Origin: Prostheceraeus crozeri
Taxonomy: Eukaryota; Platyhelminthes; Polycladida; Euryleptidae
Length of the DNA: 64,000 bases
Assembly (NCBI GenBank): GCA_907163375.1
Contig: CAJQUW010011503.1
Coordinates: 1 to 64,000, forward strand
Reading direction: 5' to 3'
Position 1 is the stretch's first letter, and each line of letters begins with the position of its first letter. This document shows positions 4,138-31,350 of the stretch, in pieces. Made by a program: the position numbers and the translations under genes. The notes under the pieces are model-generated. The model worked only from the letters and a program-made list of their open reading frames with translations. It had not been told where the DNA came from and searched no databases.

Positions 4138-4215
4138 TGCCTGATGTACATGTTTCCGTTCCCTCCCTGTCATATACCGCTTTCGTATTGACCAATAAAG
4201 ATTTTCTATTTCTAT

Positions 4216-5562: not shown

Positions 5563-6227
5563 AAACGTTGGTCGGCATTGCAAATTATTGTAAGAGCTTC
5601 AATGGTGGAAAGAATTTCGCCTTCTCCGCCAGACTGTCATCGACTCCTACAGTCGGAGAACTAAGAGCTGCCTTGGGTGCAGAAATGAAGAAGGATCCGA
5701 AGACAATATCTTTGGGGAGGCGGACAGCACTGCATGGCGGAAAACCAGTCTACTTGGTGGGAGGTGTGTATTCTGACGTGTGTGGATGTCTCCATCAGCC
5801 CAATGAAGTTCAAGAGGAGAGAGCGGTGGCGCTGGTGATGGATGATGAGCAGCTGCCAATCATTCCCGATGTGATGAACTGCTTCATTGTTTCTCCTGCC
5901 GACGGTGAGTTGTGATGAGTCCTGTGTGTGATGATAGATCAATACTGAGATCACCATCTATTCCTAGAAAATATTGTTTCAGACTCTTTTTCAAACGAAA
6001 AGATTCTTGGCGATCAATGATATCAGGAGCCATCCTTGAATACACAAATCTTTAAAAATGTCTCCTCTTCACACTGAAACTAAGATAAGGCATCATTATT
6101 TGTTTTCCTCCGTGTTTTTGTTACTCTCTTTTCTTTGTAACTTGAAAACTGCAAAAATCGTCAACTTTTATCTTTAGTGAAACTTTTCTTTGCAGAGGTT
6201 GCATGCGTCTTATCACAGAGACGATAG
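5563..6227 (+). CDS. Candidate terminal exons of an unrecognised host gene
   Basis: Exon A spans 5563-5904. It follows TTGTCTTTCCAG, has no stop across 114 codons and ends at a textbook donor, G|GTGAGT. A 291-bp intron ends in TTTTCTTTGCAG at 6195. Exon B (6196-6227) continues in matching phase 1 and reaches TAG after about ten residues, VACVLSQRR. The predicted piece is soluble-looking, contains GRRTALHGGKPVYLVGG near its middle and matches no family I know. Upstream exons are not identified. The splice signals are seen; calling it a gene is inference. It could be a decayed exon. Confidence 0.5.
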
Positions 6228-7124
6228 ATGGGAGAGTGGCTGTGGACACGATGTCTAGGCTTCACTTTCAACTTTTAAAATTGATGATGTTACCAACTCT
6301 TCAGTTTCATTTTCAAACTGCCACAGCCAGCTCCCCAATACCTTGTAGCTTTCGTACATTAAGAAAAAGCATTGTATTTCACTCTCGATAGCTTTGGAGG
6401 TCATAGAAATGGTTGAAATGAGTTTGAGATTACATAGAATTCTCACAGTTCCAGATAGCCATGAAGCGGCGTCCGTCACTCCAGCTTGAGAATCCATTAA
6501 TGAATGAATTGGTGAATGGATATTTCAAATCATTTTTAGATAGAAATGTGAAATTTAAATGTATCCACATTTACAAACATTCATAGATTTTCAAACTTTT
6601 GATGAACTAAAATCTATTGAGAGAGCAAACTTTCATAGACTTCAGTAAAAGTCAATCAAAGATTTCTTCATCTCTCCATTATCTGTGACTAACAGTGATG
6701 AAGAATTGCAATATTCATAGATTTCTTAAGAGTTACATACAATGGCAATATATCATGGATTTTGCGGGCAGAAATATCAGACAGTCTCAGCTGCTAACAC
6801 AGCCCCATCTATGTCTGATATCACTGTCCTAAAAGTCCATGATATAATGCTACATTACATAAAGGTCTTTGAACTATCATAGCACCATACTCGTCATTTA
6901 TGTTCATCCCATAGCATTCTTTCACCCTCGCAGATCTCATACCGTCATAACATCGTGTAAGGTGTGACATTATACTTTGACAGTGATTACTCTTGTAACA
7001 AATCCATTGTTAACCCTAAATGCCACACACGGTGGGACAACTGCCGACTTGGGCGATCTTCCTTAAAACTCGCTGTTTAACAGAGGGTCCGGAAATGAGT
7101 TTGAGATTACATCCCGTACGAATA
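6228..7124. other. Intergenic / 3' region without recognised genes
   Basis: AT-rich sequence after the candidate stop codon. Apart from an imperfect hairpin at 6745-6850, listed separately, I see no coding exon or element boundary. Confidence 0.5.
6745..6850. repeat. 106-nt imperfect inverted repeat (hairpin)
   Basis: The left arm 6745-6783 and right arm 6812-6850 are 39 nt each and pair with about 7 mismatches around a 28-nt loop. The dimensions fit either a small foldback element or a pre-miRNA-like hairpin. No target-site duplication is obvious. Nothing in the sequence alone decides between these. Confidence 0.6.
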
Positions 7125-7126
7125 TA

Positions 7127-8893
7127 CAGGGTGATTTTTAATTGACGCAAGATTTAAAATTGTTTTTATTTCTACTTAGTCGACATGAAAAATGAAGTAT
7201 TATACATTTCTGAACACCTGAAACTGGGGAATTTATGAATATCAAAGCGGTTAAAGCATATCTATAATCTCCAATTTTTAAGAAATTTTTATATTCCATT
7301 ACATAAAATCATTGAAAACTTTACAACAAATGTTCAATCACGTCACCTTCGCTTTCTACAACAAGGTGCAGTCGTAGGAGGAGGTTTGCAATGGCACTTT
7401 GTATTTCACTTGAAGAAAAATTGTTGCATTCTTCTGCTATTCTGTGCATTAGCTGATTCATTGTGGAAGGACGACTGTGGTGGAAGACACGACCCTTTAA
7501 TGTCCCCCAAAACCAAAAATCGAGAGGGGATAAATCCGGAGATCTTGCTGGCCATCTTATGGAATGCCCTCTTCCAATGACTCGATCATTGGGGAAATGT
7601 GCCTTTAAGAATTGAATCACGTCTCCATGAAAATGGGGCGGTGCTCCATCTTGCGGGAAGATAGTGGAGTTTTTGATTCCCTTCTCATCCAGTTGTGGCA
7701 ACATGTGCTGCTCCAACATTCCAAGGTAATTGTTTCCAGTGACTGTGGAGTCAAAGAAATAGGGTTGCAAAACGAATGTTGACGATATGCCACACCAGAC
7801 AGTCACTTTTTCAGGATGAAGCCCTTTCGAAACCAAAACATTGACTGGGCTAGGGCTCCATATGACACAGTTGTGCCGATTAATGCTGCCATCAAGCGTG
7901 AAATTTGCCTCGTCGCTCCACAGGATGCGTTGGATAAGGTCCTCATTCGTAAGCAGCCAGTTGGCGAATTCAAGTCGATGGACCTTATCGCCATCCGTTA
8001 TTTCTTGATGGACACGTGTGCGATAGGGATACCATCTCAACTGCTTGCGAAGAACTGTCCACACATTAGATTGAGAAAATCCAGTCGCTTCCGAAATCTC
8101 ACGGGTGGAACAGCAAGGAATTTCGCGGCCACTCGTTATCTCAGCAACAGTCTTTTCCACTTCTTCTTCGCGCTCTTCTCTTAAACTTTTACGTCCTTTT
8201 CCTGGAGAATCGTTTACAGAACCGGTAGCTTTGAAACGAGTCACTAATCGTTGAATCGTAGTGACAGCGAATGGATCTCTATGCAACTTGTGTTTGGTCT
8301 TATATGCACGTAATGTTTGAAGGCAACTTTCATGATTTTGAGCGTACAGGAATATCAATTCAATTCTCGTTTCAGTAGACAGGGACATCTTGATCATTTG
8401 ACAACAGTGCCGTGTGTTGCAAGCCTTTATTCCACACTTGATAGCTCTGTAAACGCTGTTCATCGAGGCTTCATAGCTCCATCGCTTACTGATCGCTTTG
8501 CAAATGCTTTTCATTGACAGTTCATGACAATGAAATTATCACCATCAAGATCTCAAAGGCAAAATGAATTAATAGAAGTGTGATCAGATTGATGATAGAA
8601 TGCGTCTGATTTTCACTTGCTACCCTTTTCTATTCATATCTAATATCAATAATTTTTCTATGGTTGTGATTAAAGGAAGTTCAATGAAATGAAGTAATTC
8701 AGTGGTAATGAAATTCAAAGATAAAATATAAAAATTTCTTAAAAATTGGAGATTATAGATATGCTTTAACCGCTTTGATATTCATAAATTCCCCAGTTTC
8801 AAGTGTTCAGAAATGTATAATACTTCATTTTTCATGTCGACTAAGTAGAAATAAAAACAATTTTAAATCTTGCGTCAATTAAAAATCACCCTG
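7127..8893 (-). mobile_element. Intact-looking mariner-like DNA transposon
   Basis: Begins CAGGGTGATTTTTAATTG and ends with its reverse complement, flanked by TA on each side (7125-7126 and 8894-8895). The terminal inverted repeats are 169 bp (7127-7295 and 8725-8893), and I count one mismatch between them. The body is a single minus-strand transposase. Near-identical ends plus an open transposase suggest recent mobility. Confidence 0.95.
7321..8514 (-). CDS. mariner-like transposase (D-D-D type), uninterrupted
   Basis: 397 codons from the first ATG. The in-frame ATG at 8388 (residue 43, MSLSTETR) is a more likely start, because the family's helix-turn-helix region begins there and it gives about 355 residues, closer to the usual length. 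Residues ~45-150 form the DNA-binding helix-turn-helix part, including TTIQRLVTRFKATGSV. The catalytic acids are D201 in LWSDEANF, D289 in PQDGAPPH and D332 in SPDLSPLDF, so the triad is complete. By my count 42 residues separate D289 and D332, longer than the 34 of classical mariner and near the 41 of the group with WPARSPDL and FWG motifs. It cuts and pastes the element at TA sites. No stops or shifts. Confidence 0.94.
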   Translation of the reverse strand: MKSICKAISKRWSYEASMNSVYRAIKCGIKACNTRHCCQMIKMSLSTETRIELIFLYAQNHESCLQTLRAYKTKHKLHRDPFAVTTIQRLVTRFKATGSVNDSPGKGRKSLREEREEEVEKTVAEITSGREIPCCSTREISEATGFSQSNVWTVLRKQLRWYPYRTRVHQEITDGDKVHRLEFANWLLTNEDLIQRILWSDEANFTLDGSINRHNCVIWSPSPVNVLVSKGLHPEKVTVWCGISSTFVLQPYFFDSTVTGNNYLGMLEQHMLPQLDEKGIKNSTIFPQDGAPPHFHGDVIQFLKAHFPNDRVIGRGHSIRWPARSPDLSPLDFWFWGTLKGRVFHHSRPSTMNQLMHRIAEECNNFSSSEIQSAIANLLLRLHLVVESEGDVIEHLL

Positions 8894-13436: not shown

Positions 13437-13442
13437 ACTGAA
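13437..13442. repeat. 6-bp target-site duplication, left copy
   Basis: ACTGAA immediately precedes the terminal AGTAGTAA of the palindrome. The identical hexamer follows the other terminus at 31345-31350. Confidence 0.85.
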
Positions 13443-13464
13443 AGTAGTAAGCACATCCCAGACG

Positions 13465-13532
13465 CAAGGACAGTGCGGTGCAGTGATGAGTCATGGCAAA
13501 ATCAAGGACAGTGCGGTGCAGTGATGAGTCAT
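13465..13532. repeat. Subterminal direct repeat of the palindrome (left)
   Basis: A 30-bp segment beginning CAAGGACAGTGCGGTGCAG and ending GATGAGTCAT occurs at 13465-13494 and again at 13503-13532, period 38 bp. The mirror copy lies at about 31255-31322. Repeats this close to both ends are the usual position of integrase or replication-protein sites; the role here is inference. Confidence 0.8.
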
Positions 13533-13929
13533 CAGGCGGACGCAAGGACAAAATGTGAAATGATGTGAAATGCAGTGTGAGGGAGATGGCCAAGGATGTG
13601 TTGGGAGGAATGGGTCCGTGAGGAGAAAACCGCCCCCCCCCCCCTCTGGACAGCTTGCTTCGATGTTGGCTTCTAGTGGACGGATTTTGTCGTGCGATAG
13701 CTCGTTTGAAAGCTAAGAGTGAGACAAATTCAGTGAAACAATCGGCTTGTTCCTATCTGTCTTCGTTCAAAAGTTAGAGCGGTTACAAGATTTTAGGTCG
13801 GAGCTCGCTTACCTGAAAAAATCCTAAGTGTCAGAGTGACTTTGTATGGGTAAAAATTTGAAAATTTTCCAAAGTGTGGAATTTCGACCTGGGACCGTCA
13901 CCAAAACATTTTTCATCAAATTTCGCTGA

Positions 13930-14900
13930 CCCCCCCCCCCCCCCCCAACGACTCAACTGACCAAATTGGTCGAAAAGACCAAAGTTGTTCAGAATCATGT
14001 GAAACAAACTTCTATCAAGGTTTCAGGTTGAAATTCGTCCAAAAAATTTTTTCGAAAATTTTCACTACGGTGGTCTCGACACTTAGGATTTTTTCATGAA
14101 AAAAAAAAATTTTTCAAAATGTTGGAATTGAGCTCCGAGACCCATCCCATCGTGTTTGTCGTCAAAAGTTGGGTCGGTGAAGTTTCGGTGAAAAAACCGC
14201 CCCCCCCCCCCCAACGACTCAACTGACCAAATTGGTTGAAAAGACCAAAGTTGTTCAGAATCATGTGAAACAAACTTCTATCAAGGTTTCAGGTTGAAAT
14301 TCGTCCAAAAAATTTTTTCGAAAATTTTCACTACGGTGGTCTCGACACTTAGGATTTTTTCATGAAAAAAAAAAATTTTTCAAAATGTTGGAATTGAGCT
14401 CCGAGACCCATCCCATCGTGTTTGTCGTCAAAAGTTGGGTCGGTGAAGTTTCGGTGAAAAACCCCCCCCCCCCCCAACGACTCAACTGACCAAATTGGTT
14501 GAAAAGACCAAAGTTGTTCAGAATCATGTGAAACAAACTTCTATCAAGGTTTCAGGTTGAAATTCGTCCAAAAAATTTTTTCGAAAATTTTCACTACGGT
14601 GGTCTCGACACTTAGGATTTTTTCATGAAAAAAAAAAAAAATTTTCAAAATGTTGGAATTGAGCTCCGAGACCCATCCCATCGTGTTTGTCGTCAAAAGT
14701 TGGGTCGGTGAAGTTTCGGTGAAAAAACCGCCCCCCCCCCCCCCCAACGACTCAACTGACCAAATTGGTCGAAAAGACCAAAGTTGTTCAGAATCATGTG
14801 AAACAAACTTCTATCAAGGTTTCAGGTTGAAATTCGTCCAAAAAATTTTTTCGAAAATTTTCACTACGGTGGTCTCGACACTTAGGATTTTTTCAAGTCC
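13930..14900. repeat. ~266-bp tandem array with poly-C and poly-A tracts (left arm)
   Basis: Four units begin with CAACGACTCAACTGACC at about 13946, 14212, 14475 and 14745. Each unit carries a run of 10-17 C, then GACCAAATTGGTC palindromes, then an A-run of 9-13 followed by T-rich sequence. Homopolymer lengths differ between units and between arms. Open frames within it are shadows of the repeat. Confidence 0.93.
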
Positions 14901-15274
14901 AAATGTGAAATGTCGCTTTTTTTTTTTTGCCAACTTGGACGATGAATTGTGGAGGATTGGAAGTGAATGAAGAGCTCGGGTTTCTTTTAGCGGCAAGACC
15001 GCACTTTGTTCTCTAGGATCTCCTCTTTTCAGATGCGTGACAGGCTCCGTTTCCAAATGAGAGCCTGTTAAAAATCGAGTTTTTGTGCATTTTCCAAGAT
15101 TTTGGAACTTTTTGAAAAAAACGACAGAGTTTTTTCATCTCGGCTTCTGGTCATCGTAGAGGGTCGAGGGATGTCTTAAATGAAAGGGGAGAGCGAGAAA
15201 ACGTGACACTCAAAATTTGGAGTCAATCGGAGCACTAGAACCGGAGATAGACGGGTTTAAAGTTTTTGGATGAT

Positions 15275-15368
15275 GGGTGTTACGTCATCAGCTGATCGCC
15301 ACACACTATATAAGCTGGGAACCGACAGAGACTTGTCATTAAGACGAGAGCGATTGTCAGAGGTAGGT
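15275..15368 (+). promoter_or_regulatory. Inward RNA polymerase II core promoter with splice donor (left arm)
   Basis: A CRE-like TTACGTCA and the palindrome ATCAGCTGAT precede TATATAA (15307-15313). An initiator-like TCATT places its A at 15338, 31 bp after the TATA start, the canonical spacing. About 25 bp later AG|GTAGGT is a plausible 5' splice site (15363). This would start a spliced transcript running toward the palindrome centre. No first-exon ATG is needed in so short a leader; the downstream acceptor is not identified. Confidence 0.6.
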
Positions 15369-16349
15369 CGTCTCTCTGAGCTCCGATGATAGCTTCGGAC
15401 ATTCCAAATCCCCGGTTTCTGTAAGAAACCGACTTAGAAAATTTCATTGCTGAACTCAGCTAAGGCGTCAGACTTAGAGGTTCGCCAGGAGATGGCCTTC
15501 GTCTCCAGGCCATAAAAGACTCCAAAACTTTAAAGGCTTGTAACTTTGCTTCTACAAGTCCGTTTGACTTGATTCAAAAAAGGTTCGGTTGCTATTGACC
15601 TGCTCTAAGTGATAGACTACTTATAAAATGTTGTAAGTAGTGCTAAAAAGTTGAAAAATTTAAATTCACTAGTTTTGGAGGTTTTCTGGGGTTTTCGACC
15701 CTGCTGAAGTCAACTAGATGATTTTTAATGATGTCTGAGCCAGTCTTCTCATGTTACAAGCAGCTTTTCACTGAAAGCGAGCAAGACACGGAGAGTTTTG
15801 CTGTAATATTCCACTGACAGGGTGTTCCTTCGGGACGGCGGACGATGCCGTAGTGATAAGTGTGGCAAGGGAGTGTGTCATAGTTTAGACCGTAACCGCT
15901 GGGACAACTCATGTCTCATGTTGGGCATTTGACACAGTTCTCAACGTAGCACTTTGAACGCCAATCGGTTGAGTCTTAGCTATCTTGTCATGGGTGGCCT
16001 CTAAACATCTCCATTGCAAAACGCTGGTGAATCAAGCTCTCTACGGCTTGCTATCAAGCTGATCAAAGTCTGTCAACCTCTTACCAACTCCACCGGTTTT
16101 CATGTCTGGCGATCAAGTCATGGACGGTGCACGATTTTCGGTGTGATACTTCCTGTGGGTGATTTCGAGACAGCGGTGAAGTGCGTAGCTGCACGGGACG
16201 TGGGCAATGGTAATCCTTGTGAAACCTCTCTGCGTCATGTTTGCAATTTTTCGTCTCCGTGATAGAGACAAGCAGAACTGATGAATGGAATGAAGGGAGG
16301 ACATTCATGCGCCACACGCAACACATCACAGACTTCTCTCTTTGCTAGT

Positions 16350-17215
16350 GAACAAGCTCTTGTCAGTGTCGTCAGAAACTTTATCATATTGTACAAAAGT
16401 TTTATTGCAACACAGGTTGATGTATAGTTAGAAAGTTTGATCATCAACGTTTTATTCGTAAGTCTAGTCAGAAACTGTATCATGGTTTGTAAAAGCAAAG
16501 TTAGTGTAGTCAATTAGTTCTTTACCGCGACACCCGTTTGAGAAAGTAAAGTTTGATCATGACGTTTATTCGTGAGTGTCATCAGAAAGTTCATCATGGT
16601 TTGTAAAAGCAAAGTTAGTGTAGTCAACTAGTTTTTACTACAACTCATGTTTGTGAAAATAAAGTTTGATCATTGACGTTGTATTCGTAAGTCTAGTCAG
16701 AAAGTGTATCATGGTTTGTAAAAGTTTTACTGCAACACAGGTTGATGTATAGTTAGAAAAGTTTGATCATGGCGTTTTATGAAACACAAATGCCATAAAT
16801 GTTAGCGCTAGTGTAGTCAAATAATTTTACTACGACGCACGTTTGTGAAAATAAAGTTTGATCATGACGTTTATTCGTGAGTGTCATCAGAAAGTGTATC
16901 ATGGTTTGAAAAAGTAAAGTTAGTGTAGTCAGAAACTTTATCATGTTGTATAAAGGTTTTACTGCTACACAGGTGGATGTATGGTTAGAAAGTTTGATCA
17001 TTGAAGTTGTATTCGTAAGTCTAATCAGAAAGTGTATCATGTTGTACAAAGGTTTTACTACAACACAGGTTGATGTATAGTTAGAAAATTTGATCATGGC
17101 GTTTTATGAAACACAAGTGTTATGAAATGTAAGCGTTAGTGTAGTCAAATAATATTACCGCGACACACGTTTGTGAAAATAATGTTTGATCATTGACGTT
17201 GTATGACTGACCGAA
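16350..17215. repeat. Degenerate tandem array (left arm)
   Basis: Motifs such as AGAAAGTTTGATCATG, GTTTTATTCGTAAGTC and TAGTGTAGTCAA recur every roughly 93-137 bp in shuffled, diverged form. The mirror copy is 27595-28440. Frames across it on the other strand repeat the same peptide words, so they are repeat shadows. Confidence 0.8.
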
Positions 17216-17220
17216 CTCAT

Positions 17221-17440
17221 CACAGCACTAGAAAGTTTTATCGAAAAGGTTTTACTGCACAGTGTAGATTGTCTTGTAACTTACTTTCACAGCACTAGAA
17301 AGTTTTATCGAAAAGGTTTTACTGCACAGTGTAGATTGTCTTGTAACTTACTTTCACAGCACTAGAAAGTTTTATCGAAAAGGTTTTACTGCACAGTGTA
17401 GATTGTCTTGTAACTTACTTTCACAGTGTTAGAAAGTTTT
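17221..17440. repeat. 67-bp tandem repeat, about 3.3 copies (left arm)
   Basis: Units start CACAGCACTAGAAAGTTTTA at 17221, 17288 and 17355, with a diverged fourth start at 17422. The copies are nearly identical, unlike the neighbouring degenerate array. The mirror is at about 27350-27573. Confidence 0.92.
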
Positions 17441-18786
17441 ATTGGAGACAGTTGGCAAATGTTTCCCTATTAGAAAATTCAAACTCCATGACTGTTAGAC
17501 TCGCTTCATCAGGTTTAGTAAAAGCAGTTTTCTACTGCAATGAGAGTTTAGAATGTTATATGAAAACAGTGTTCACCACAGCACTAGAAAGTTTTTATCC
17601 TTAGTTGAGATCCGGACTGCAGTGTGTAAAATGTTTTATGTGACAGTCTTTTCACAAACGGTGAAGTGTAAATTCAGAGTGAATACATCTGTTAGGTAGT
17701 CATTAACTTTGGATGTGAAGTAAAGCGAATCTGTGTACAGAATGAATTGAATATTAGACAACGCCTGCAAGTTTTTGACGACTTGAGTGGTTGAAACCAA
17801 GTCTAAGTTTAACATGTTGGATATCAAAGTGAGATGGATAGGAATAAGTGTTGAATGTTTTATAAAACCAGATGTTGTCACACACGTTGAGTGTGATTCC
17901 ATGACATTGAATCGCATGGGCTGTAAAGTCCATCATCCAAGGCTAGGCTCCTCTACGGTCGGATTTAGGGTTTTATATCACATGTGTTAACCGTTCGTGT
18001 AGAATACGTGAAGCACATGTTCGCTTAAACGCAAATGTTGAAATAAGTTTTGTAAGAAGTCTTTGACAGGTTGTTGTGAAACTTAGCGAACGTTGAAAAA
18101 AGTTTTATGAAATGTTTCTGCAGTCACACTCGTTAGCGTACCAGCTTTACTAAATGTGTTGTTTGCCTTTATGAAATTGAATGTGTGTGTTTTGTAAATA
18201 AAGACAGCGTGTTTGCACTCTGCATCGACAGCATACAAGTATAGACATAACAACTTATTGTTAGTCGAATGCATATGAGATAGGAAACGTTATGTGTGAG
18301 ATAAAAATCAACCTGCTAGATGAAGTGAAACACAAAAGTGTCACAACTGGTTTACGGGAAATAAAGGAGAACTGTGACAACGTTTACACTCATCATGGAC
18401 AGATGAACATACAAATCTGACATTCAAATGAAAGTCGTAAACATGAAATGTGGTGTAAGAAACTTTATGTCAACAACTTTATGTTGGTAAAACTTGCATA
18501 GATTGCAGGCGTGTTGAAAGCTGATATAAAGACCTGTAGAAACGCATAAGTCTTAGTTCAACGACTCGACCCTTGAACTCACACAATGAATACGTCTGTG
18601 TAGAAAACTCATTGGTAGGAAACAGCATTTTCTGTGCGAATGCAGACGATGTAAACATGACATTTAACATGGCTTGCAATAGTCAACATGCTGCCATTCA
18701 AAATGTTTATCATGAAACCTATCAGTGAAAAAACCCCTCCTGTGCCCACAAAGAATCATAAGTGCACTCTGCCGCCTGGTTGTCTC

Positions 18787-18897
18787 GCTAGCCCCTCAGC
18801 AGATAGAGTAGAACACAAAGATGAATGACAGCGCAGTCGGTGGGTGATCGTCTGTCGCGCTAGCCCCTCAGCAGATGGAGTAGAACACAAAGATGTA
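18787..18897. repeat. Duplicated 72-bp segment upstream of the 78-codon frame (left arm)
   Basis: GCTAGCCCCTCAGCAGAT, followed by GAGTAGAACACAAAGATG, occurs at 18787 and 18859. It lies about 350 bp upstream of the 78-codon reading frame, in a GC-richer stretch that also has a GCGCGCGC run near 19087. It may be an upstream regulatory repeat; that is inference. Confidence 0.75.
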
Positions 18898-19235
18898 CGC
18901 GCTCTCTCTCTGGCGCCCGTCTGTCACATGAAACAGAGAGCTATCGCATCTGTCCCACGAGCAAGGATGCAGGAACGTATCGTAGCACCTAGCTGATTCC
19001 CACACAGCTCATTGCCATCGCGTCGAAGATATTATCGTGGGCGGCTGAAAGGATTCTCACGTTGACAATTCGTTACTGTACACTCCGCGCGCGCGCAAGT
19101 CACCATTTGCTGTTAAAGCATGGACACTGTCGATTTGTTTAATTCTTCAATGTCTTGCTAGCCAGTTACAAAAATGTGTGAGAAATATAAGGGAGACGTT
19201 CACACTCATTCATCAATTACAAGTCGTTTGAAGCA

Positions 19236-19472
19236 ATGTCTTTCGATATTGCTTTCTTTGACATGAGTCGAACCCTTGAGCTCCGCTGTGGATGCAGGGT
19301 GAAGATGGGGAAAGTCTTTCTCCTGACTGCTTTGCAGGCAGAGAAAGGCGAAGCAATTCGCTGCCCCGTCCATCTTATTCCACATGAGCTTGTGGGGAAC
19401 CCTTTATTTAGGGATATGGCGCTAGAATATCTGGCGTTGCTGAGAATTCAGCGTCCGGAATACTTCGAGTAA
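19236..19472 (+). CDS. 78-residue protein of the palindrome, left copy
   Basis: Starts at ATG in the context AAGCAATG. TATAA lies at 19186-19190 and initiator-like TCATT/TCATC motifs at about 19206-19214, so the leader would be only 20-30 nt. The product is compact and has Cys-Gly-Cys near residue 19 and RCPVH near residue 42, a possible C-x-C/C-x2-H zinc site, and ends IQRPEYFE. The stop TAA sits in the loop of a perfect hairpin (19457-19484). Base composition is GC-richer than the rest of the arm. I recognise no family. The identical frame in the other arm supports selection or recent duplication, not function by itself. Confidence 0.6.
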   Translation: MSFDIAFFDMSRTLELRCGCRVKMGKVFLLTALQAEKGEAIRCPVHLIPHELVGNPLFRDMALEYLALLRIQRPEYFE

Positions 19473-19484
19473 TCGAAGTATTCC
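19457..19484 (+). terminator. Perfect 12-bp hairpin holding the stop codon
   Basis: GGAATACTTCGA (19457-19468) pairs with TCGAAGTATTCC (19473-19484) around loop GTAA. The loop contains most of the stop codon TAA (19470-19472). No AATAAA follows closely. It could act in 3'-end formation or translation, or be an inverted repeat of another kind; the role is unknown. The class 'terminator' is the nearest available label. Confidence 0.6.
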
Positions 19485-19499
19485 ATCGGTCCTTCCGAG

Positions 19500-22120
19500 G
19501 GCCCGGTCACCAATTCGTTGGAGGCCACCCTATTAACAAAGAAAAGTTACAGACTGTGCCACACACAAACACTAGATTCAAGGATCTCTATCTTTCTTAG
19601 AAAATGAAGAAGCTCTTATTAAATTCATCTGATGAGAACTCAACTTCATGACAAGGTGCCCAACACACATCTTCAAAGGTCTAACTGCCATGAAATCATC
19701 ATGTTTAAAGTTTTAAGGCCCCTATGATAAGTAGCAAGGATCTTTTACATGCTGTAAAATATAAACGTGTGTAGAGAGAGGTTTTGACCTGAAGTCATGA
19801 ATTTATTTCTTCACTACCCCTCAAATGGAAAGAGTAAGGGTGGTGGAAGAATCATCAGAGCAACATGTTGTATAGTAATGCAGGCAATGACAGCCACGAT
19901 TTGACTTACAGATTTAGCGTTTTATATAACATACATCAATGATAACTGTTGTTGTAGAGTGTATACATGCATTTACTGACTTAGCCATTGGTGAATGACA
20001 CATCTAAATTGGTAAAGTCCATCATCTAAGGGGTAGGCTTACCTACCGTCGGATTTAGGGACTTAGTCATTTGGATAATACAAATGAAACGATCTCTTTT
20101 AGTATAGAATACGTAATGCATATGTTCACTTTATAAAATGACTTTGAAGGCAAGACTTAATTTTCATGGTGAAAAGCCAGTTTTGATATCGTTGATGAGA
20201 GATAGTTACATACTCATTATGTTATACATTTTACATTTGATGTGGTCAGCTGAAAAATGATTGATACATGTTCAATAGAAGCGTTGTATGTATCTTAGTG
20301 ACTGGAATCATAAGTGTGTAAAGAGTTGATGAGGAAAATACATAATAGTCAACGCAGGAAAGTTTCTTGTTATCCAATCTAGGAATATATGAACATCATT
20401 CATCAGTCAGTGTTGTATTTTAAAAGTTGTATGCTGACAGAGACATAAGTTTACTAAATTATACAGCAAAACTCCTAAATCCATAGGATAGGTGCCCCTG
20501 TGTTGAAATTTAAGGATTTAACGTTTTAAAAGTGTAAGTTACATAGATAAATCACTAAGTCCATAGTATAGTCAAGCCTATGACAAGACTTGGCGTTTTA
20601 TATGATCCATGTTAGTAATATCTGCTCGTGTAGGATGTGACTCAATGAGTTTAGTCAGATAATGTATCATCAACTTTATTCACTTAGTTATATGATGGAG
20701 AAAGTGTGAGATAGAAGTGAAAGCGATCTCATAAAGTTTAGAAGACATAGTAGTAGCATTGTAGGAATAAGTAAAGTGAAAAGTTATGTCGCATGAAATC
20801 AGTGATGCAAGATTAGCTCGCATTGAAATGAATTGGTAGTGTAACAAACAAGCTATGTGAGATTCAGCATATGTTTGAAGACAAGCGCTGTTAAAAGGTT
20901 TTGAGATGATGTGAATTTTATCACGTCATGTTCATGGATGTAACAGAATGAATGTTTCTACTGGTTGAGTGTATAAGATAGAACACATATCATAGTTGTT
21001 GCATGTAAACTGGAGGTTCATATTCAACGAAAGCAAAGATTGAGATTGCAAAGTTTAATGAATAGGTAGTGTAGCAAATTGGTTAGACATAGTTAGAAGA
21101 AACCGCAGTAACATATCGTGATAGTATCATATTGCATTAGGACTGTTAATTTATGAAAGTAATTCACGTAAAGTTAAACTGAAGTAGTTTGTATACTTGA
21201 TGAAGACAAGATACTATGAGTGTGAACGTAGAAATAGCATGCAATGGAGTATGCGTTGAAATGATTGTATGCCAACTGTATATGAAAAGTTATTTCCAAC
21301 AGCAAATAAGTAACACGAACGTATTAAGGTGCTACAAGTCTTTCATATTGATGAGGCTGACTGGAAGAAATGACTGTTGTCGTAAATGGGGAATTCAGCC
21401 TATGTTGAAAGTCAGGTACTGTGAAAGTTTTTATGATGATATTTGTCAAGGTTGAATGCAAAGTATCACATCATGTTTATAGATGAAAAGCGGAAGAGAA
21501 TAAATGTCTTTACAGGTTTTGAGTGTATAGGATAGAACACATGAAACAGTTACACTATGTAAATAAAGTTAAAGGGTCACAGTTGATGAAAGGTAGCTTT
21601 GATAGATTTCACATGGGTTGTTATGTAGAATGAATTGATATTCATAAATGGAAGTATGATGTAGTGATAAAGTGTTTCTAAGCCTTTCTTATGAGTGTCT
21701 ATGTAAGGCTGACTTTCATAAGTTGAGAAATGACTGTCTTCATAAGTGCAGAATAAAAGTATCTAGCTAGCGCGCATTATCTTTCAGGGATGATTGAACT
21801 CAAGTATTGTTATGCAGTATGTCTTGTGATGATATTTCGTATTGAACACTGTATCAAGTCATAAGTATGGGTATGAAGTATAATAGAATAAATGTTTCAT
21901 TCACAGGTTGAGAATATAGGAGGCACAAAGTATTGGTTGTATGTCATAGAGGGAAAAGCAAGTAATTTATAGAGCGACAGAGTCGATGTGTATGTGAAAG
22001 TATGTTAACGTATACATCCTATCCGAGAAATAGTATTAGGTCTCTGTGTAGATGTCTCAATAACATTTCATGGTTGTATTAGCATAAATCTGGTCAGTTG
22101 GGTAGTTCTCCCTTTAATTT
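19500..22120. other. Inner part of left arm, degenerate repeats without recognised genes
   Basis: Rich in GTATAG, TTTATAT and AATGAATG words, with diverged copies of TATAAAA/hairpin units (for example 20025-20085 and 20490-20625). Several ~60-80-codon frames exist, including 21216-21455, but none shows a motif, and the surroundings look like decayed repeats. Mirror: 22680-25300. Confidence 0.55.
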
Positions 22121-22326
22121 TTTCTTTATATTCTCTCTCTCTCTATGTCTGCCTGTGTGTATTTTCTTCTTTGTATCTGGTTGGGTGAGTGTTGTGACTT
22201 TTTAAGTTGTTTTCCTTTAGAGTATAGAATATTCATTTCGTATAGAATATGATAATAGGAATATATTAAGGGTAGTATCTTTGTATATTGCAAGAGGTAT
22301 AGCATCATGGTTAGCAGGGTAGCAGC

Positions 22327-22467
22327 TCTATGTGTGTGAATTCCATGCATGTTTGTGTGAGCGTGTCTGTGTGCGTATGAGTGCGTGATAATAAAGCGAT
22401 GACTTGTATCCATTCATCAAACTAATGAACATTATACAAAAACAGAAGAAGCAAATGGCATCATTTG
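22327..22467. other. Unique spacer at the palindrome centre
   Basis: 141 bp that do not pair with each other. The left half is rich in GT (TGTGTGAGCGTGTCTGTGTGCG); the right half is AT-rich. This is the only unpaired sequence in 17.9 kb, and it fixes the orientation of the element. Confidence 0.85.
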
Positions 22468-24185
22468 GCTGCTACCTTGCTAACCATGATGCTATACCTC
22501 TTGCAATATACAAAGATACTACCCTTAATATATTCCTATTATCATATTCTATACGAAATGAATATTCTATACTCTAAAGGAAAACAACTTAAAAAGTCAC
22601 AACACTCACCCAACCAGATACAAAGAAGAAAATACACACAGGCAGACATAGAGAGAGAGAGAATATAAAGAAAAAATTAAAGGGAGAACTACCCAACTGA
22701 CCAGATTTATGCTAATACAACCATGAAATGTTATTGAGACATCTACACAGAGACCTAATACTATTTCTCGGATAGGATGTATACGTTAACATACTTTCAC
22801 ATACACATCGACTCTGTCGCTCTATAAATTACTTGCTTTTCCCTCTATGACATACAACCAATACTTTGTGCCTCCTATATTCTCAACCTGTGAATGAAAC
22901 ATTTATTCTATTATACTTCATACCCATACTTATGACTTGATACAGTGTTCAATACGAAATATCATCACAAGACATACTGCATAACAATACTTGAGTTCAA
23001 TCATCCCTGAAAGATAATGCGCGCTAGCTAGATACTTTTATTCTGCACTTATGAAGACAGTCATTTCTCAACTTATGAAAGTCAGCCTTACATAGACACT
23101 CATAAGAAAGGCTTAGAAACACTTTATCACTACATCATACTTCCATTTATGAATATCAATTCATTCTACATAACAACCCATGTGAAATCTATCAAAGCTA
23201 CCTTTCATCAACTGTGACCCTTTAACTTTATTTACATAGTGTAACTGTTTCATGTGTTCTATCCTATACACTCAAAACCTGTAAAGACATTTATTCTCTT
23301 CCGCTTTTCATCTATAAACATGATGTGATACTTTGCATTCAACCTTGACAAATATCATCATAAAAACTTTCACAGTACCTGACTTTCAACATAGGCTGAA
23401 TTCCCCATTTACGACAACAGTCATTTCTTCCAGTCAGCCTCATCAATATGAAAGACTTGTAGCACCTTAATACGTTCGTGTTACTTATTTGCTGTTGGAA
23501 ATAACTTTTCATATACAGTTGGCATACAATCATTTCAACGCATACTCCATTGCATGCTATTTCTACGTTCACACTCATAGTATCTTGTCTTCATCAAGTA
23601 TACAAACTACTTCAGTTTAACTTTACGTGAATTACTTTCATAAATTAACAGTCCTAATGCAATATGATACTATCACGATATGTTACTGCGGTTTCTTCTA
23701 ACTATGTCTAACCAATTTGCTACACTACCTATTCATTAAACTTTGCAATCTCAATCTTTGCTTTCGTTGAATATGAACCTCCAGTTTACATGCAACAACT
23801 ATGATATGTGTTCTATCTTATACACTCAACCAGTAGAAACATTCATTCTGTTACATCCATGAACATGACGTGATAAAATTCACATCATCTCAAAACCTTT
23901 TAACAGCGCTTGTCTTCAAACATATGCTGAATCTCACATAGCTTGTTTGTTACACTACCAATTCATTTCAATGCGAGCTAATCTTGCATCACTGATTTCA
24001 TGCGACATAACTTTTCACTTTACTTATTCCTACAATGCTACTACTATGTCTTCTAAACTTTATGAGATCGCTTTCACTTCTATCTCACACTTTCTCCATC
24101 ATATAACTAAGTGAATAAAGTTGATGATACATTATCTGACTAAACTCATTGAGTCACATCCTACACGAGCAGATATTACTAACAT

Positions 24186-24322
24186 GGATCATATAAAACG
24201 CCAAGTCTTGTCATAGGCTTGACTATACTATGGACTTAGTGATTTATCTATGTAACTTACACTTTTAAAACGTTAAATCCTTAAATTTCAACACAGGGGC
24301 ACCTATCCTATGGATTTAGGAG
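24186..24322 (+). repeat. TATAAAA-hairpin units (right arm, plus orientation)
   Basis: Two adjacent units: CATATAAAACGCCAAGTC ... ATGGACTTAG and TTTTAAAACGTTAAATCC ... ATGGATTTAG. In each, a TATA-like box is followed by TAAATCC or AAGTC and, 25-40 nt later, its complement, which would form a short stem. Related units lie at 24726-24781, 24863-24890 and 26811-26871, and in inverse form in the left arm. They may be serial promoters with small structured transcripts or simply decayed repeats. Confidence 0.5.
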
Positions 24323-25308
24323 TTTTGCTGTATAATTTAGTAAACTTATGTCTCTGTCAGCATACAACTTTTAAAATACAACACTGACTGATGAATGATG
24401 TTCATATATTCCTAGATTGGATAACAAGAAACTTTCCTGCGTTGACTATTATGTATTTTCCTCATCAACTCTTTACACACCTATGATTCCAGTCACTAAG
24501 ATACATACAACGCTTCTATTGAACATGTATCAATCATTTTTCAGCTGACCACATCAAATGTAAAATGTATAACATAATGAGTATGTAACTATCTCTCATC
24601 AACGATATCAAAACTGGCTTTTCACCATGAAAATTAAGTCTTGCCTTCAAAGTCATTTTATAAAGTGAACATATGCATTACGTATTCTATACTAAAAGAG
24701 ATCGTTCATTTGTATTATCCAAATGACTAAGTCCCTAAATCCGACGGTAGGTAAGCCTACCCCTTAGATGATGGACTTTACCAATTTAGATGTGTCATTC
24801 ACCAATGGCTAAGTCAGTAAATGCATGTATACACTCTACAACAACAGTTATCATTGATGTATGTTATATAAAACGCTAAATCTGTAAGTCAAATCGTGGC
24901 TGTCATTGCCTGCATTACTATACAACATGTTGCTCTGATGATTCTTCCACCACCCTTACTCTTTCCATTTGAGGGGTAGTGAAGAAATAAATTCATGACT
25001 TCAGTCAAAACCTCTCTCTACACACGTTTATATTTTACAGCATGTATAAGATCCTTGCTACTTATCATAGGGGCCTTAAAACTTTAATCATGATGATTTC
25101 ATGGCAGTTAGACCTTTTGAAGATGTGTGTTGGGCACCTTGTCATGAAGTTGAGTTCTCATCAGATGAATTTAATAAGAGCTTCTTCATTTTCTAAGAAA
25201 GATAGAGATCCTTGAATCTAGTGTTTGTGTGTGGCACAGTCTGTAACTTTTCTTTGTTAATAGGGTGGCCTCCAACGAATTGGTGACCGGGCCCTCGGAA
25301 GGACCGAT

Positions 25309-25336
25309 GGAATACTTCGATTACTCGAAGTATTCC
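25309..25336 (-). terminator. Perfect 12-bp hairpin holding the stop codon, right copy
   Basis: Mirror of the hairpin at 19457-19484 with loop TTAC as read on the plus strand. Confidence 0.6.
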
Positions 25337-25557
25337 GGACGCTGAATTCTCAGCAACGCCAGATATTCTAGCGCCATATCCCTAAATAAAGGGTTCCCCA
25401 CAAGCTCATGTGGAATAAGATGGACGGGGCAGCGAATTGCTTCGCCTTTCTCTGCCTGCAAAGCAGTCAGGAGAAAGACTTTCCCCATCTTCACCCTGCA
25501 TCCACAGCGGAGCTCAAGGGTTCGACTCATGTCAAAGAAAGCAATATCGAAAGACAT
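25321..25557 (-). CDS. 78-residue protein of the palindrome, right copy
   Basis: Same reading frame and same product as the copy at 19236-19472, on the opposite strand, so both are transcribed inward toward the palindrome centre. The stop again lies in the loop of the hairpin at 25309-25336. No difference from the left copy was noticed within the frame. Confidence 0.6.
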   Translation of the reverse strand: MSFDIAFFDMSRTLELRCGCRVKMGKVFLLTALQAEKGEAIRCPVHLIPHELVGNPLFRDMALEYLALLRIQRPEYFE

Positions 25558-27349
25558 TGCTTCAAACGACTTGTAATTGATGAATGAGTGTGAACGTCTC
25601 CCTTATATTTCTCACACATTTTTGTAACTGGCTAGCAAGACATTGAAGAATTAAACAAATCGACAGTGTCCATGCTTTAACAGCAAATGGTGACTTGCGC
25701 GCGCGCGGAGTGTACAGTAACGAATTGTCAACGTGAGAATCCTTTCAGCCGCCCACGATAATATCTTCGACGCGATGGCAATGAGCTGTGTGGGAATCAG
25801 CTAGGTGCTACGATACGTTCCTGCATCCTTGCTCGTGGGACAGATGCGATAGCTCTCTGTTTCATGTGACAGACGGGCGCCAGAGAGAGAGCGCGTACAT
25901 CTTTGTGTTCTACTCCATCTGCTGAGGGGCTAGCGCGACAGACGATCACCCACCGACTGCGCTGTCATTCATCTTTGTGTTCTACTCTATCTGCTGAGGG
26001 GCTAGCGAGACAACCAGGCGGCAGAGTGCACTTATGATTCTTTGTGGGCACAGGAGGGGTTTTTTCACTGATAGGTTTCATGATAAACATTTTGAATGGC
26101 AGCATGTTGACTATTGCAAGCCATGTTAAATGTCATGTTTACATCGTCTGCATTCGCACAGAAAATGCTGTTTCCTACCAATGAGTTTTCTACACAGACG
26201 TATTCATTGTGTGAGTTCAAGGGTCGAGTCGTTGAACTAAGACTTATGCGTTTCTACAGGTCTTTATATCAGCTTTCAACACGCCTGCAATCTATGCAAG
26301 TTTTACCAACATAAAGTTGTTGACATAAAGTTTCTTACACCACATTTCATGTTTACGACTTTCATTTGAATGTCAGATTTGTATGTTCATCTGTCCATGA
26401 TGAGTGTAAACGTTGTCACAGTTCTCCTTTATTTCCCGTAAACCAGTTGTGACACTTTTGTGTTTCACTTCATCTAGCAGGTTGATTTTTATCTCACACA
26501 TAACGTTTCCTATCTCATATGCATTCGACTAACAATAAGTTGTTATGTCTATACTTGTATGCTGTCGATGCAGAGTGCAAACACGCTGTCTTTATTTACA
26601 AAACACACACATTCAATTTCATAAAGGCAAACAACACATTTAGTAAAGCTGGTACGCTAACGAGTGTGACTGCAGAAACATTTCATAAAACTTTTTTCAA
26701 CGTTCGCTAAGTTTCACAACAACCTGTCAAAGACTTCTTACAAAACTTATTTCAACATTTGCGTTTAAGCGAACATGTGCTTCACGTATTCTACACGAAC
26801 GGTTAACACATGTGATATAAAACCCTAAATCCGACCGTAGAGGAGCCTAGCCTTGGATGATGGACTTTACAGCCCATGCGATTCAATGTCATGGAATCAC
26901 ACTCAACGTGTGTGACAACATCTGGTTTTATAAAACATTCAACACTTATTCCTATCCATCTCACTTTGATATCCAACATGTTAAACTTAGACTTGGTTTC
27001 AACCACTCAAGTCGTCAAAAACTTGCAGGCGTTGTCTAATATTCAATTCATTCTGTACACAGATTCGCTTTACTTCACATCCAAAGTTAATGACTACCTA
27101 ACAGATGTATTCACTCTGAATTTACACTTCACCGTTTGTGAAAAGACTGTCACATAAAACATTTTACACACTGCAGTCCGGATCTCAACTAAGGATAAAA
27201 ACTTTCTAGTGCTGTGGTGAACACTGTTTTCATATAACATTCTAAAACTCTCATTGCAGTAGAAAACTGCTTTTACTAAACCTGATGAAGCGAGTCTAAC
27301 AGTCATGGAGTTTGAATTTTCTAATAGGGAAACATTTGCCAACTGTCTC

Positions 27350-28440
27350 CAATAAAACTTTCTAACACTGTGAAAGTAAGTTACAAGACAATCTACACTG
27401 TGCAGTAAAACCTTTTCGATAAAACTTTCTAGTGCTGTGAAAGTAAGTTACAAGACAATCTACACTGTGCAGTAAAACCTTTTCGATAAAACTTTCTAGT
27501 GCTGTGAAAGTAAGTTACAAGACAATCTACACTGTGCAGTAAAACCTTTTCGATAAAACTTTCTAGTGCTGTGATGAGTTCGGTCAGTCATACAACGTCA
27601 ATGATCAAACATTATTTTCACAAACGTGTGTCGCGGTAATATTATTTGACTACACTAACGCTTACATTTCATAACACTTGTGTTTCATAAAACGCCATGA
27701 TCAAATTTTCTAACTATACATCAACCTGTGTTGTAGTAAAACCTTTGTACAACATGATACACTTTCTGATTAGACTTACGAATACAACTTCAATGATCAA
27801 ACTTTCTAACCATACATCCACCTGTGTAGCAGTAAAACCTTTATACAACATGATAAAGTTTCTGACTACACTAACTTTACTTTTTCAAACCATGATACAC
27901 TTTCTGATGACACTCACGAATAAACGTCATGATCAAACTTTATTTTCACAAACGTGCGTCGTAGTAAAATTATTTGACTACACTAGCGCTAACATTTATG
28001 GCATTTGTGTTTCATAAAACGCCATGATCAAACTTTTCTAACTATACATCAACCTGTGTTGCAGTAAAACTTTTACAAACCATGATACACTTTCTGACTA
28101 GACTTACGAATACAACGTCAATGATCAAACTTTATTTTCACAAACATGAGTTGTAGTAAAAACTAGTTGACTACACTAACTTTGCTTTTACAAACCATGA
28201 TGAACTTTCTGATGACACTCACGAATAAACGTCATGATCAAACTTTACTTTCTCAAACGGGTGTCGCGGTAAAGAACTAATTGACTACACTAACTTTGCT
28301 TTTACAAACCATGATACAGTTTCTGACTAGACTTACGAATAAAACGTTGATGATCAAACTTTCTAACTATACATCAACCTGTGTTGCAATAAAACTTTTG
28401 TACAATATGATAAAGTTTCTGACGACACTGACAAGAGCTT
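27350..28440. repeat. 67-bp triplicate and degenerate array (right arm)
   Basis: Mirror of 16350-17440. In this orientation the recurring words are ATGATCAAACTTT (at about 27604, 27698, 27791, 27928, 28023, 28120, 28232 and 28345), CAACCTGTGTTGCAGTAAAAC and TTACGAATAAAACG. Reading frames here (27697-28017, 28281-28559) repeat those words and are not called as genes. Confidence 0.8.
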
Positions 28441-29411
28441 GTTCACTAGCAAAGAGAGAAGTCTGTGATGTGTTGCGTGTGGCGCATGAATGTCCTCCCT
28501 TCATTCCATTCATCAGTTCTGCTTGTCTCTATCACGGAGACGAAAAATTGCAAACATGACGCAGAGAGGTTTCACAAGGATTACCATTGCCCACGTCCCG
28601 TGCAGCTACGCACTTCACGCTGTCTCGAAATCACCCACAGGAAGTATCACACCGAAAATCGTGCACCGTCCATGACTTGATCGCCAGACATGAAAACCGG
28701 TGGAGTTGGTAAGAGGTTGACAGACTTTGATCAGCTTGATAGCAAGCCGTAGAGAGCTTGATTCACCAGCGTTTTGCAATGGAGATGTTTAGAGGCCACC
28801 CATGACAAGATAGCTAAGACTCAACCGATTGGCGTTCAAAGTGCTACGTTGAGAACTGTGTCAAATGCCCAACATGAGACATGAGTTGTCCCAGCGGTTA
28901 CGGTCTAAACTATGACACACTCCCTTGCCACACTTATCACTACGGCATCGTCCGCCGTCCCGAAGGAACACCCTGTCAGTGGAATATTACAGCAAAACTC
29001 TCCGTGTCTTGCTCGCTTTCAGTGAAAAGCTGCTTGTAACATGAGAAGACTGGCTCAGACATCATTAAAAATCATCTAGTTGACTTCAGCAGGGTCGAAA
29101 ACCCCAGAAAACCTCCAAAACTAGTGAATTTAAATTTTTCAACTTTTTAGCACTACTTACAACATTTTATAAGTAGTCTATCACTTAGAGCAGGTCAATA
29201 GCAACCGAACCTTTTTTGAATCAAGTCAAACGGACTTGTAGAAGCAAAGTTACAAGCCTTTAAAGTTTTGGAGTCTTTTATGGCCTGGAGACGAAGGCCA
29301 TCTCCTGGCGAACCTCTAAGTCTGACGCCTTAGCTGAGTTCAGCAATGAAATTTTCTAAGTCGGTTTCTTACAGAAACCGGGGATTTGGAATGTCCGAAG
29401 CTATCATCGGA

Positions 29412-29510
29412 GCTCAGAGAGACGACCTACCTCTGACAATCGCTCTCGTCTTAATGACAAGTCTCTGTCGGTTCCCAGCTTATATAGTGTGTGGCGATCA
29501 GCTGATGACG
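29412..29510 (-). promoter_or_regulatory. Inward core promoter with splice donor (right arm)
   Basis: Mirror of the left promoter: TGACGTAA, ATCAGCTGAT, TTATATA at about 29480-29486 and an initiator-like AATGA, all on the minus strand. With the left copy this makes a pair of convergent promoters 14 kb apart. Confidence 0.55.
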
Positions 29511-29879
29511 TAACACCCATCATCCAAAAACTTTAAACCCGTCTATCTCCGGTTCTAGTGCTCCGATTGACTCCAAATTTTGAGTGTCACGTTTTCTCGC
29601 TCTCCCCTTTCATTTAAGACATCCCTCGACCCTCTACGATGACCAGAAGCCGAGATGAAAAAACTCTGTCGTTTTTTCAAAAAGTTCCAAAATCTTGGAA
29701 AATGCACAAAAACTCGATTTTTAACAGGCTCTCATTTGGAAACGGAGCCTGTCACGCATCTGAAAAGAGGAGATCCTAGAGAACAAAGTGCGGTCTTGCC
29801 GCTAAAAGAAACCCGAGCTCTTCATTCACTTCCAATCCTCCACAATTCATCGTCCAAGTTGGCAAAAAAAAAAAGCGAC

Positions 29880-30870
29880 ATTTCACATTTGGACTTGAAA
29901 AAATCCTAAGTGTCGAGACCACCGTAGTGAAAATTTTCGAAAAAATTTTTTGGACGAATTTCAACCTGAAACCTTGATAGAAGTTTGTTTCACATGATTC
30001 TGAACAACTTTGGTCTTTTCGACCAATTTGGTCAGTTGAGTCGTTGGGGGGGGGGGGGCGGTTTTTCACCGAAACTTCACCGACCCAACTTTTGACGACA
30101 AACACGATGGGATGGGTCTCGGAGCTCAATTCCAACATTTTGAAAAATTTTTTTTTTTTTTCATGAAAAAATCCTAAGTGTCGAGACCACCGTAGTGAAA
30201 ATTTTCGAAAAAATTTTTTGGACGAATTTCAACCTGAAACCTTGATAGAAGTTTGTTTCACATGATTCTGAACAACTTTGGTCTTTTCAACCAATTTGGT
30301 CAGTTGAGTCGTTGGGGGGGGGGGGGGGGGGTTTTCACCGAAACTTCACCGACCCAACTTTTGACGACAAACACGATGGGATGGGTCTCGGAGCTCAATT
30401 CCAACATTTAAAAAAATTTTTTTTTTTCATGAAAAAATCCTAAGTGTCGAGACCACCGTAGTGAAAATTTTCGAAAAAATTTTTTGGACGAATTTCAACC
30501 TGAAACCTTGATAGAAGTTTGTTTCACATGATTCTGAACAACTTTGGTCTTTTCAACCAATTTGGTCAGTTGAGTCGTTGGGGGGGGGGGGGCGGTTTTT
30601 TCACCGAAACTTCACCGACCCAACTTTTGACGACAAACACGATGGGATGGGTCTCGGAGCTCAATTCCAACATTTTGAAAAATTTTTTTTTTTTCATGAA
30701 AAAATCCTAAGTGTCGAGACCACCGTAGTGAAAATTTTCGAAAAAATTTTTTGGACGAATTTCAACCTGAAACCTTGATAGAAGTTTGTTTCACATGATT
30801 CTGAACAACTTTGGTCTTTCGACCAATTTGGTCAGTTGAGTCGTTGGGGGGGGGGGGGGTCAGCGAAATT
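29880..30870. repeat. ~266-bp tandem array with poly-G tracts (right arm)
   Basis: Mirror of 13930-14900. Units carry GAGTCGTTGGGG at about 30041, 30309, 30572 and 30841. The runs of G differ in length from the C runs in the left arm. Confidence 0.93.
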
Positions 30871-31344
30871 TGATGAAAAATGTTTTGGTGACGGTCCCAG
30901 GTCGAAATTCCACACTTTGGAAAATTTTCAAATTTTTACCCATACAAAGTCACTCTGACACTTAGGATTTTTTCAGGTAAGCGAGCTCCGACCTAAAATC
31001 TTGTAACCGCTCTAACTTTTGAACGAAGACAGATAGGAACAAGCCGATTGTTTCACTGAATTTGTCTCACTCTTAGCTTTCAAACGAGCTATCGCACGAC
31101 AAAATCCGTCCACTAGAAGCCAACATCGAAGCAAGCTGTCCAGAGGGGGGGGGGCGGTTTTCTCCTCACGGACCCATTCCTCCCAACACATCCTTGGCCA
31201 TCTCCCTCACACTGCATTTCACATCATTTCACATTTTGTCCTTGCGTCCGCCTGATGACTCATCACTGCACCGCACTGTCCTTGATTTTGCCATGACTCA
31301 TCACTGCACCGCACTGTCCTTGCGTCTGGGATGTGCTTACTACT

Positions 31345-31350
31345 ACTGAA
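31345..31350. repeat. 6-bp target-site duplication, right copy
   Basis: ACTGAA directly follows the terminal TTACTACT; identical to 13437-13442. Confidence 0.85.

Follow-up and report, generated by a model that had tools for sequence, protein, structure and literature searches.

Maverick/Polinton elements range in size from 15 to 20 kb. Palindromes made of a viral end and other DNA occur in adenoviruses as symmetric recombinants (SYREC, adenovirus 12) and snap-back defective genomes, and the SYREC-type genomes are laboratory products of a free, protein-primed, strand-displacing virus. As summarized in PMC6431247, a polymerase B and a DDE integrase define Maverick/Polinton elements. Adenovirus ends are described as carrying a duplicated trinucleotide for jumping-back initiation (PMC4974454), and the Bidnaviridae as polB-bearing viruses of two segments derived from polintoviruses (PMC4061559). 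The window analysed in the current study, a stretch of 64,000 nt from the polyclad flatworm Prostheceraeus crozeri (assembly GCA_907163375.1, contig CAJQUW010011503.1, positions 1 to 64,000), contains a near-perfect palindrome of 17.9 kb in total, spanning positions 13443–31344. This gene-less palindrome of full size is probably a satellite, or 'full cheat', of a Maverick/Polinton that is split into two complementary elements. These are termed here kind A (polymerase-bearing) and kind B (integrase-bearing); gene-less palindromes are termed kind C, and all three kinds have the same terminus.

The family that shares these ends resembles Maverick/Polinton elements in its 6-bp target duplication, terminal inverted repeats, size of 15–20 kb, DNA_pol_B_2 polymerase, rve integrase, adenain-like protease and, tentatively, ATPase-like protein. 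It differs from them in that its gene set appears to be divided between two kinds of element, its polymerase is fused to zinc fingers and endonuclease VII, it has a TBP-like gene, and the window copy is a gene-less, full palindrome. The element ends start, like those of adenoviruses, with a duplicated trinucleotide, AGTAGT. Unlike the SYREC genomes, the palindrome has its own evolutionary lineage and sits, flanked by target duplications, at many sites in the chromosomes. The family shares with the Bidnaviridae two complementary parts with conserved termini and a Polinton-type polB; bidnaviruses have single-stranded DNA of about 6 kb and a parvovirus-derived capsid, whereas the elements described here are integrated, 17–19 kb long, and carry the integrase on the other part. 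Miniature inverted-repeat transposable elements (MITEs) and foldback elements such as Galileo are likewise gene-less, with long inverted repeats, and moved in trans, but the palindrome is 17.9 kb long, has arms 99.9% alike throughout and is about as long as its gene-bearing relatives. The nearest logical parallels are the adenovirus symmetric recombinants and the two-segment bidnaviruses. Amongst the titles and abstract openings listed from an open-access library, no split or palindromic Polinton was found, and we know of none.

Structure and copies of the palindrome

The left arm (8,884 bp; 13443..22326, plus strand) and the right arm (8,877 bp; 22468..31344, minus strand) flank a central asymmetric spacer of 141 bp (22327..22467). 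They differ by nine substitutions in 8,870 aligned positions and by small indels, several of which sit in runs of C, A or T. Both arms end in the 17-bp terminus AGTAGTAAGCACATCCC, which starts with the tandem trinucleotide AGT AGT (13443..13459, plus strand, on the left; an exact match at 31328..31344, minus strand, on the right). In the window this terminus is found only at the two ends of the palindrome; 100 shuffles searched with up to three mismatches gave a mean of 0.14 matches, one shuffle reaching two. The target-site duplication ACTGAA borders the palindrome at 13437..13442 and 31345..31350. The left and right host flanks are dissimilar to each other, so a single locus wrongly assembled as a foldback does not account for the palindrome. 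When the flanks are joined at a single ACTGAA, a frame of 142 amino acids (aa) resembling a long interspersed nuclear element (LINE) runs across the junction on the minus strand, and the joined sequence matches across the junction, at 93–99%, in 40 of 40 scored genome places (the best 40 of 1,029 candidates, scored without reading their letters). The agreement of these LINE paralogues supports the empty site and the 6-bp duplication. The arms, spacer and borders given in the preliminary description are thus reproduced to the coordinate, and it was right to see a discrete palindromic insertion whose empty site can be read.

Each arm consists of two modules. The outer module of the left arm (13443..17308, plus strand; arm positions 1 to about 3866) has relatives at the polB-side end of elements that carry genes, and the inner module (17309..22326, plus strand) has matches, amongst the elements read, only in palindromic copies and in a divergent relative, C7212. 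In the right arm the inner module extends to about 27478 and the outer from about 27479 to 31344. Tandem repeats of 266 bp with poly-C lie in the left outer module (13934..14895, plus strand) and in its right-arm copy (29896..30858, minus strand).

The preliminary description had also held that the palindrome contains no recognizable genes, which is correct except for one remnant. Stop-to-stop frames that overlap the left arm are at most 118 aa long, and four kind A and seven kind B proteins, the polymerase and integrase included, have no match in three palindromes at E≤0.01. None of these tested proteins matched the inner module, and an Rfam search at gathering scores gave no match. The outer module does retain a 25-codon C-terminal remnant (16266..16340, plus strand; 76% identity, E 8.6e-8) of a zinc-finger/coiled-coil gene, g468, which is a long open frame near the end of some A and B elements. 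The palindrome therefore lacks a protein-primed DNA polymerase B and an rve integrase, and because these defining genes were tested for and not found, it is filed as a satellite of the family and not as a Polinton.

Further copies with the same termini and duplications, proposed as a check in the preliminary description, are abundant in the genome assembly searched (2.05 Gb, 14,165 contigs). The terminus is present in 138 exact copies, and its reversed control in none. With up to two mismatches, a 26-mer from within the spacer is found at 103 places and an inner-arm 26-mer at 218, 109 on each strand (controls 0). Pairing took in 100 of the 218 arm places and, of the 100 spacer places listed, 68 (all but one of those on contigs up to C8736). 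Seventy-eight of these arm places form 39 convergent pairs with a median separation of 2,441 bp, and a listed spacer lies inside 33 of the 39; the other 22 arm places are unpaired, nine with a listed spacer within 4 kb and 13 without; for three of the nine, the contig starts no more than 50 bp from the spacer. An arm–spacer–arm query was complete at 98–100% in all 40 scored matches (the best 40 of 219 candidates). Palindromic centres are therefore present at at least 40 loci, and at about 100 by marker count. Complete centres and marker counts together indicate that the element travels as a palindrome.

Three contigs start within 50 bp of the spacer (C8237:4, C8431:50 and C4713:46), indicating that the assembly breaks at the palindrome centre. 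In a subset of spacers (e.g. in C1388, C1539 and C6094) the 26-mer begins with a shared one-base variant; these are probably a sub-lineage.

Kinds of element with a common terminus

Twenty-five convergent terminus pairs were found amongst the first 100 of the 138 termini, and all were inspected. Eleven are of kind A (six read whole, five typed by samples) and two of kind B (C2949, read whole, and C8081, by sample). Eight are of kind C: the window copy, C368 and C498 were read whole, and C9876, C7987, C9170, C9257 and C10109 were typed by samples. The spacer is also present in C9876, C7987 and C10109, and one of the two samples from C10109 did not match; C9170 and C9257 are not amongst the 100 of 103 spacer places listed. 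The other four pairs are C7212, which contains a reverse transcriptase frame; the short C4056 (4.9 kb); C1517 (2.1 kb), not typed by content; and C6389, neither sample of which matched anything. Three further single ends belong to kind A (C244 and C3254) and to a divergent kind B (C2317).

Target duplications were examined in 23 of the 25 pairs and are exact over 6 bp in 21 and 5/6 in C9257 and C1517; two of the exact ones are of low complexity (CTCTCT and TATATA). The family thus has the 5–6 bp duplication and long terminal inverted repeats of a Polinton. Median lengths are 16.9 kb for kind A (n=11, range 13.2–32.2) and 17.4 kb for kind C (n=8, range 14.3–36.5), and the two kind B pairs measure 17.8 and 19.5 kb. 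Broadly similar lengths of the three kinds would fit a packaging size limit.

At the ends of contigs C1397 (L018) and C1643 (L022), complementary 6-bp flanks, CATGTA and TACATG, stand beside the terminus; a single insertion was probably cut in two there by the assembly. In C244, two divergently pointing termini (L002 and L003) 64 kb apart have an identical 6-bp outer flank in inverted order, perhaps reflecting inversion or duplication between elements.

Kind A encodes a 1,364-aa protein that combines C2H2 zinc fingers, an endonuclease VII domain and a DNA_pol_B_2-type polymerase. In one copy the DNA_pol_B_2 match (E 1.4e-5, 24.6 bits) is slightly below the cut-off of 25.8; PF03175 is precomputed in several close homologues, and exo and pol motifs appear visible in the alignment. 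A type B polymerase of the DNA_pol_B_2 family, as expected of a Polinton, is therefore found in the family sharing these ends. A PDB profile search with this protein returned zinc-finger proteins only. It has 4,662 relatives amongst 8,000 scored metagenomic proteins, and the 120 listed (P0001–P0120) are nearly all unnamed, on contigs of up to 21 kb; an IMG/VR search confirmed none, in a database from which records near the source genome may be left out. BLASTP groups three small paralogous proteins of kind A with the polymerase protein, to whose N-terminal region they show a resemblance by eye. Kind A also encodes a TBP-like protein (E 1.2e-21 to PF00352 in L035), and no Polinton with a TATA-binding protein was found amongst the titles listed. 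Several further A proteins have no Pfam match, and PDB profiles of two, g265/212 and g187, gave no match. The TBP-like gene is conserved across kind A elements (L035:6092–6631 and L037:8720–9259).

Kind B, as read in C2949, encodes an integrase with rve and chromodomain regions, an Ulp1/adenain-like protease, an ATPase-like protein, a RING protein and a 547-aa capsid candidate. The integrase matches rve (E 1.3e-12), Chromo (1.6e-7) and the PFV integrase (9.5e-6), giving the family the retrovirus-type integrase of Polintons. The protease matches Peptidase_C48 (Ulp1; E 2.5e-5, 24.7 bits against a cut-off of 20.7), and its match to the adenovirus family Peptidase_C5 (0.094) is below cut-off; the family thus also has the adenovirus-like cysteine protease of Polintons. 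A Walker A motif is visible in the ATPase-like protein, which in PDB matches RecA over 24 residues only. The capsid candidate has nine homologues, none of them named, and its PDB profile gave four weak chance matches, none meaningful. Neither an SF3 helicase nor a parvovirus-type capsid gave a Pfam match amongst the scanned proteins, in a scan not aimed at them. A second, divergent B lineage lies behind the same terminus at C2317:233500–234100 (L073), with 41% identity in the protease and 54% in a 394-aa protein.

The gene set appears to be divided between the two kinds. Beyond chance matches of 22–28 aa, four A proteins (the polymerase, the TBP-like protein and two others) are absent from C2949 at E≤1, and seven B proteins are absent at the same threshold from the six whole-read A elements. 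Polymerase and integrase occur together in none of the six A elements and not in the one B element read whole; the five other A pairs and one B pair were typed by samples, which do not bear on their co-occurrence. In the genome, markers of A number 1,157 and those of B 267 (26-mers with up to two mismatches, counting markers and not whole elements). On the contigs that carry both (C351, C514 and C1621) A and B markers are, by eye and amongst the matches listed, at least 37 kb apart, which is a weak test.

The ends connect all three kinds. Sequence like the outer arm of the window palindrome (3.9 kb) recurs at the polB-side end of elements with genes; the closest are B element C2949 (97.2% over 2.7 kb) and A element C3430 (98.5% over 0.87 kb), with other A elements at about 80–96%. 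For A element C1041 the closest match of one end is the window palindrome (97.8%, 279 bp) and that of the other is palindrome C498 (97.4%, 341 bp); the ends of C498 are 97–98.6% like those of C1041 and C2949 over 277–342 bp. Since the C1041 ends are closest to palindromes, ends evidently pass between kinds. Terminal repeats in A and B are about 0.6–3 kb long, some interrupted, with unique interiors, and the palindromes are the extreme of this series of terminal-repeat lengths.

Arm copying, apparent gene division and rival explanations

Three palindromes that have a common centre and different target duplications, the window copy, C498 and C368, were compared. Arm-to-arm divergence within the three is 0.10, 0.08 and 0.46%, compared with 2.6% between the window copy and C498. 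The outer 480 bp accounts for most of the latter and differs blockwise at both ends, with 138 substitutions in both arms and one in a single arm. In the inner arm (arm positions 3912–8884), 32 of 37 substitutions between these copies are in both arms and five in one. C368 has a different sequence at arm positions 3912–6970, and its comparison with the window was restricted to 6970–8884, where 45 of 54 substitutions are in both arms and nine in one. No column is heterogeneous in two copies, in any interval of any pair. Independent mutation of the arms would make changes in both arms rare, so one arm has been copied onto the other. This copying occurs while the lineage spreads or soon after insertion.

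A mechanism can be proposed in which protein priming at the AGTAGT ends would start DNA replication with strand displacement. The displaced strand would fold into a hairpin, the completion of which would rewrite one arm from the other in each cycle, and the replicated product would be inserted by the kind B integrase. The first palindrome could have arisen when a displaced or nascent strand snapped back at the spacer, about 8.9 kb from one end. The palindrome ends would thus be recognized in trans by A and B enzymes; the shared ends suggest such dependence on helpers, and the structure, one end made palindromic around a short central loop, fits a snap-back satellite genome. The fuller proposal, an endogenous Maverick in three parts, with A serving replication, B serving integration and the particle, and a gene-less, full-length palindromic cheat C that is replicated, possibly packaged, and inserted in trans, with an arm regenerated every cycle, is evenly balanced in our judgement.

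The main rival to copying during fold-back replication is conversion after insertion, in which the same machinery moves the palindrome and gene conversion then keeps the arms alike, as in long chromosomal palindromes. This is considered unlikely. Near-identical chromosomal arms would invite conversion, the replication intermediate was not observed, and symmetric arm changes are compatible with either timing. However, the outer 480 bp changes as one block at both ends together, and shared terminal repeats exist also in A and B elements, where the interiors are unique. In addition, 19 of 24 ends, compared over 400 bp, are closest to their own partner, including A and B ends that lie 16–19 kb apart.

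A second alternative is that A and B are independent families that have exchanged ends, A having an unrecognized integrase and B another polymerase, and that one of the two has the palindrome as its satellite. The A proteins without a Pfam match leave room for this, as does the single B element read whole. It is nevertheless doubtful in view of the reciprocal absence of seven B proteins from six A elements and of the four tested A proteins from B, the marker counts of the two kinds, the passage of ends between kinds (C498 with C1041 and C2949), and a gene common to both, g468, present as a long frame in B element C2949 and A element C7473 (93%). A relative of g468 at 27% is present in A element C952. 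The PDB profile of the g468 protein gave mostly coiled-coil matches.

It is very improbable that the palindrome is a MITE or foldback element of some other transposase that duplicates 6 bp, unrelated to Mavericks; it is gene-less, with inverted repeats and a target duplication, as such an element would be, but its terminus and up to 3.9 kb of its outer arm belong to elements with polymerase B or rve integrase, and this candidate was rejected because the ends are common to gene-bearing elements. An assembly or library artefact (a hairpin read or collapsed duplicate) is scarcely credible and was also rejected: several contigs do break off at the centre of the palindrome or a few hundred bases in from its ends, but the host flanks differ, the 6-bp duplication and the empty site, matched in all scored LINE paralogue places, are clean, and the centre recurs at its many loci.

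Several observations weigh against a split Maverick/Polinton with a palindromic satellite. Many A ends are only about 80–94% like the window arm, and five of the 24 ends (both of C1041, both of C3545 and one of C7473) have a better match than their own partner. The presence of g468 in B and in some A elements makes the division of genes incomplete, kind B was read whole only once, and there may be one-part Mavericks elsewhere in the genome. As a sign of an A32-type packaging ATPase, the Pfam matches of the ATPase-like protein are weak (E 0.003–0.09, under the cut-offs); as a double jelly-roll capsid protein, the capsid candidate finds no counterpart in Pfam or PHROG and has no recognizable homologue. 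Movement does not depend on full size, as the 2.1-kb and 4.9-kb elements have also moved. Amongst the 100 of 218 arm places listed, no parental, non-palindromic source of the inner module was found, and neither a terminal protein nor a replication intermediate nor a particle was seen.

Elsewhere in the window, arrays of an 18-bp tandem repeat occupy positions 1–1016 and 4222–5114, the second yielding long spurious reading frames on both strands. An open frame at 7321–8514 is, by eye, presumably related to Tc1/mariner transposases. Positions 40678–46800 hold what we take, also by eye, to be a LINE with a piggyBac-like transposase fragment (41832–42578, minus strand) between its parts.

Significance for cheats and multipartite genomes

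According to the summary of a theoretical study, partial cheats that complement one another can give rise to multipartite viruses, and the role of gene-less full cheats is raised there as a question (PMC10159356). In P. crozeri, partial and full cheats seem to exist side by side in one genome, in many datable insertions. The origin, order and fate of the cheat classes could therefore be read from sequence, and the co-evolving arms may record the replication mode of a protein-primed palindrome.

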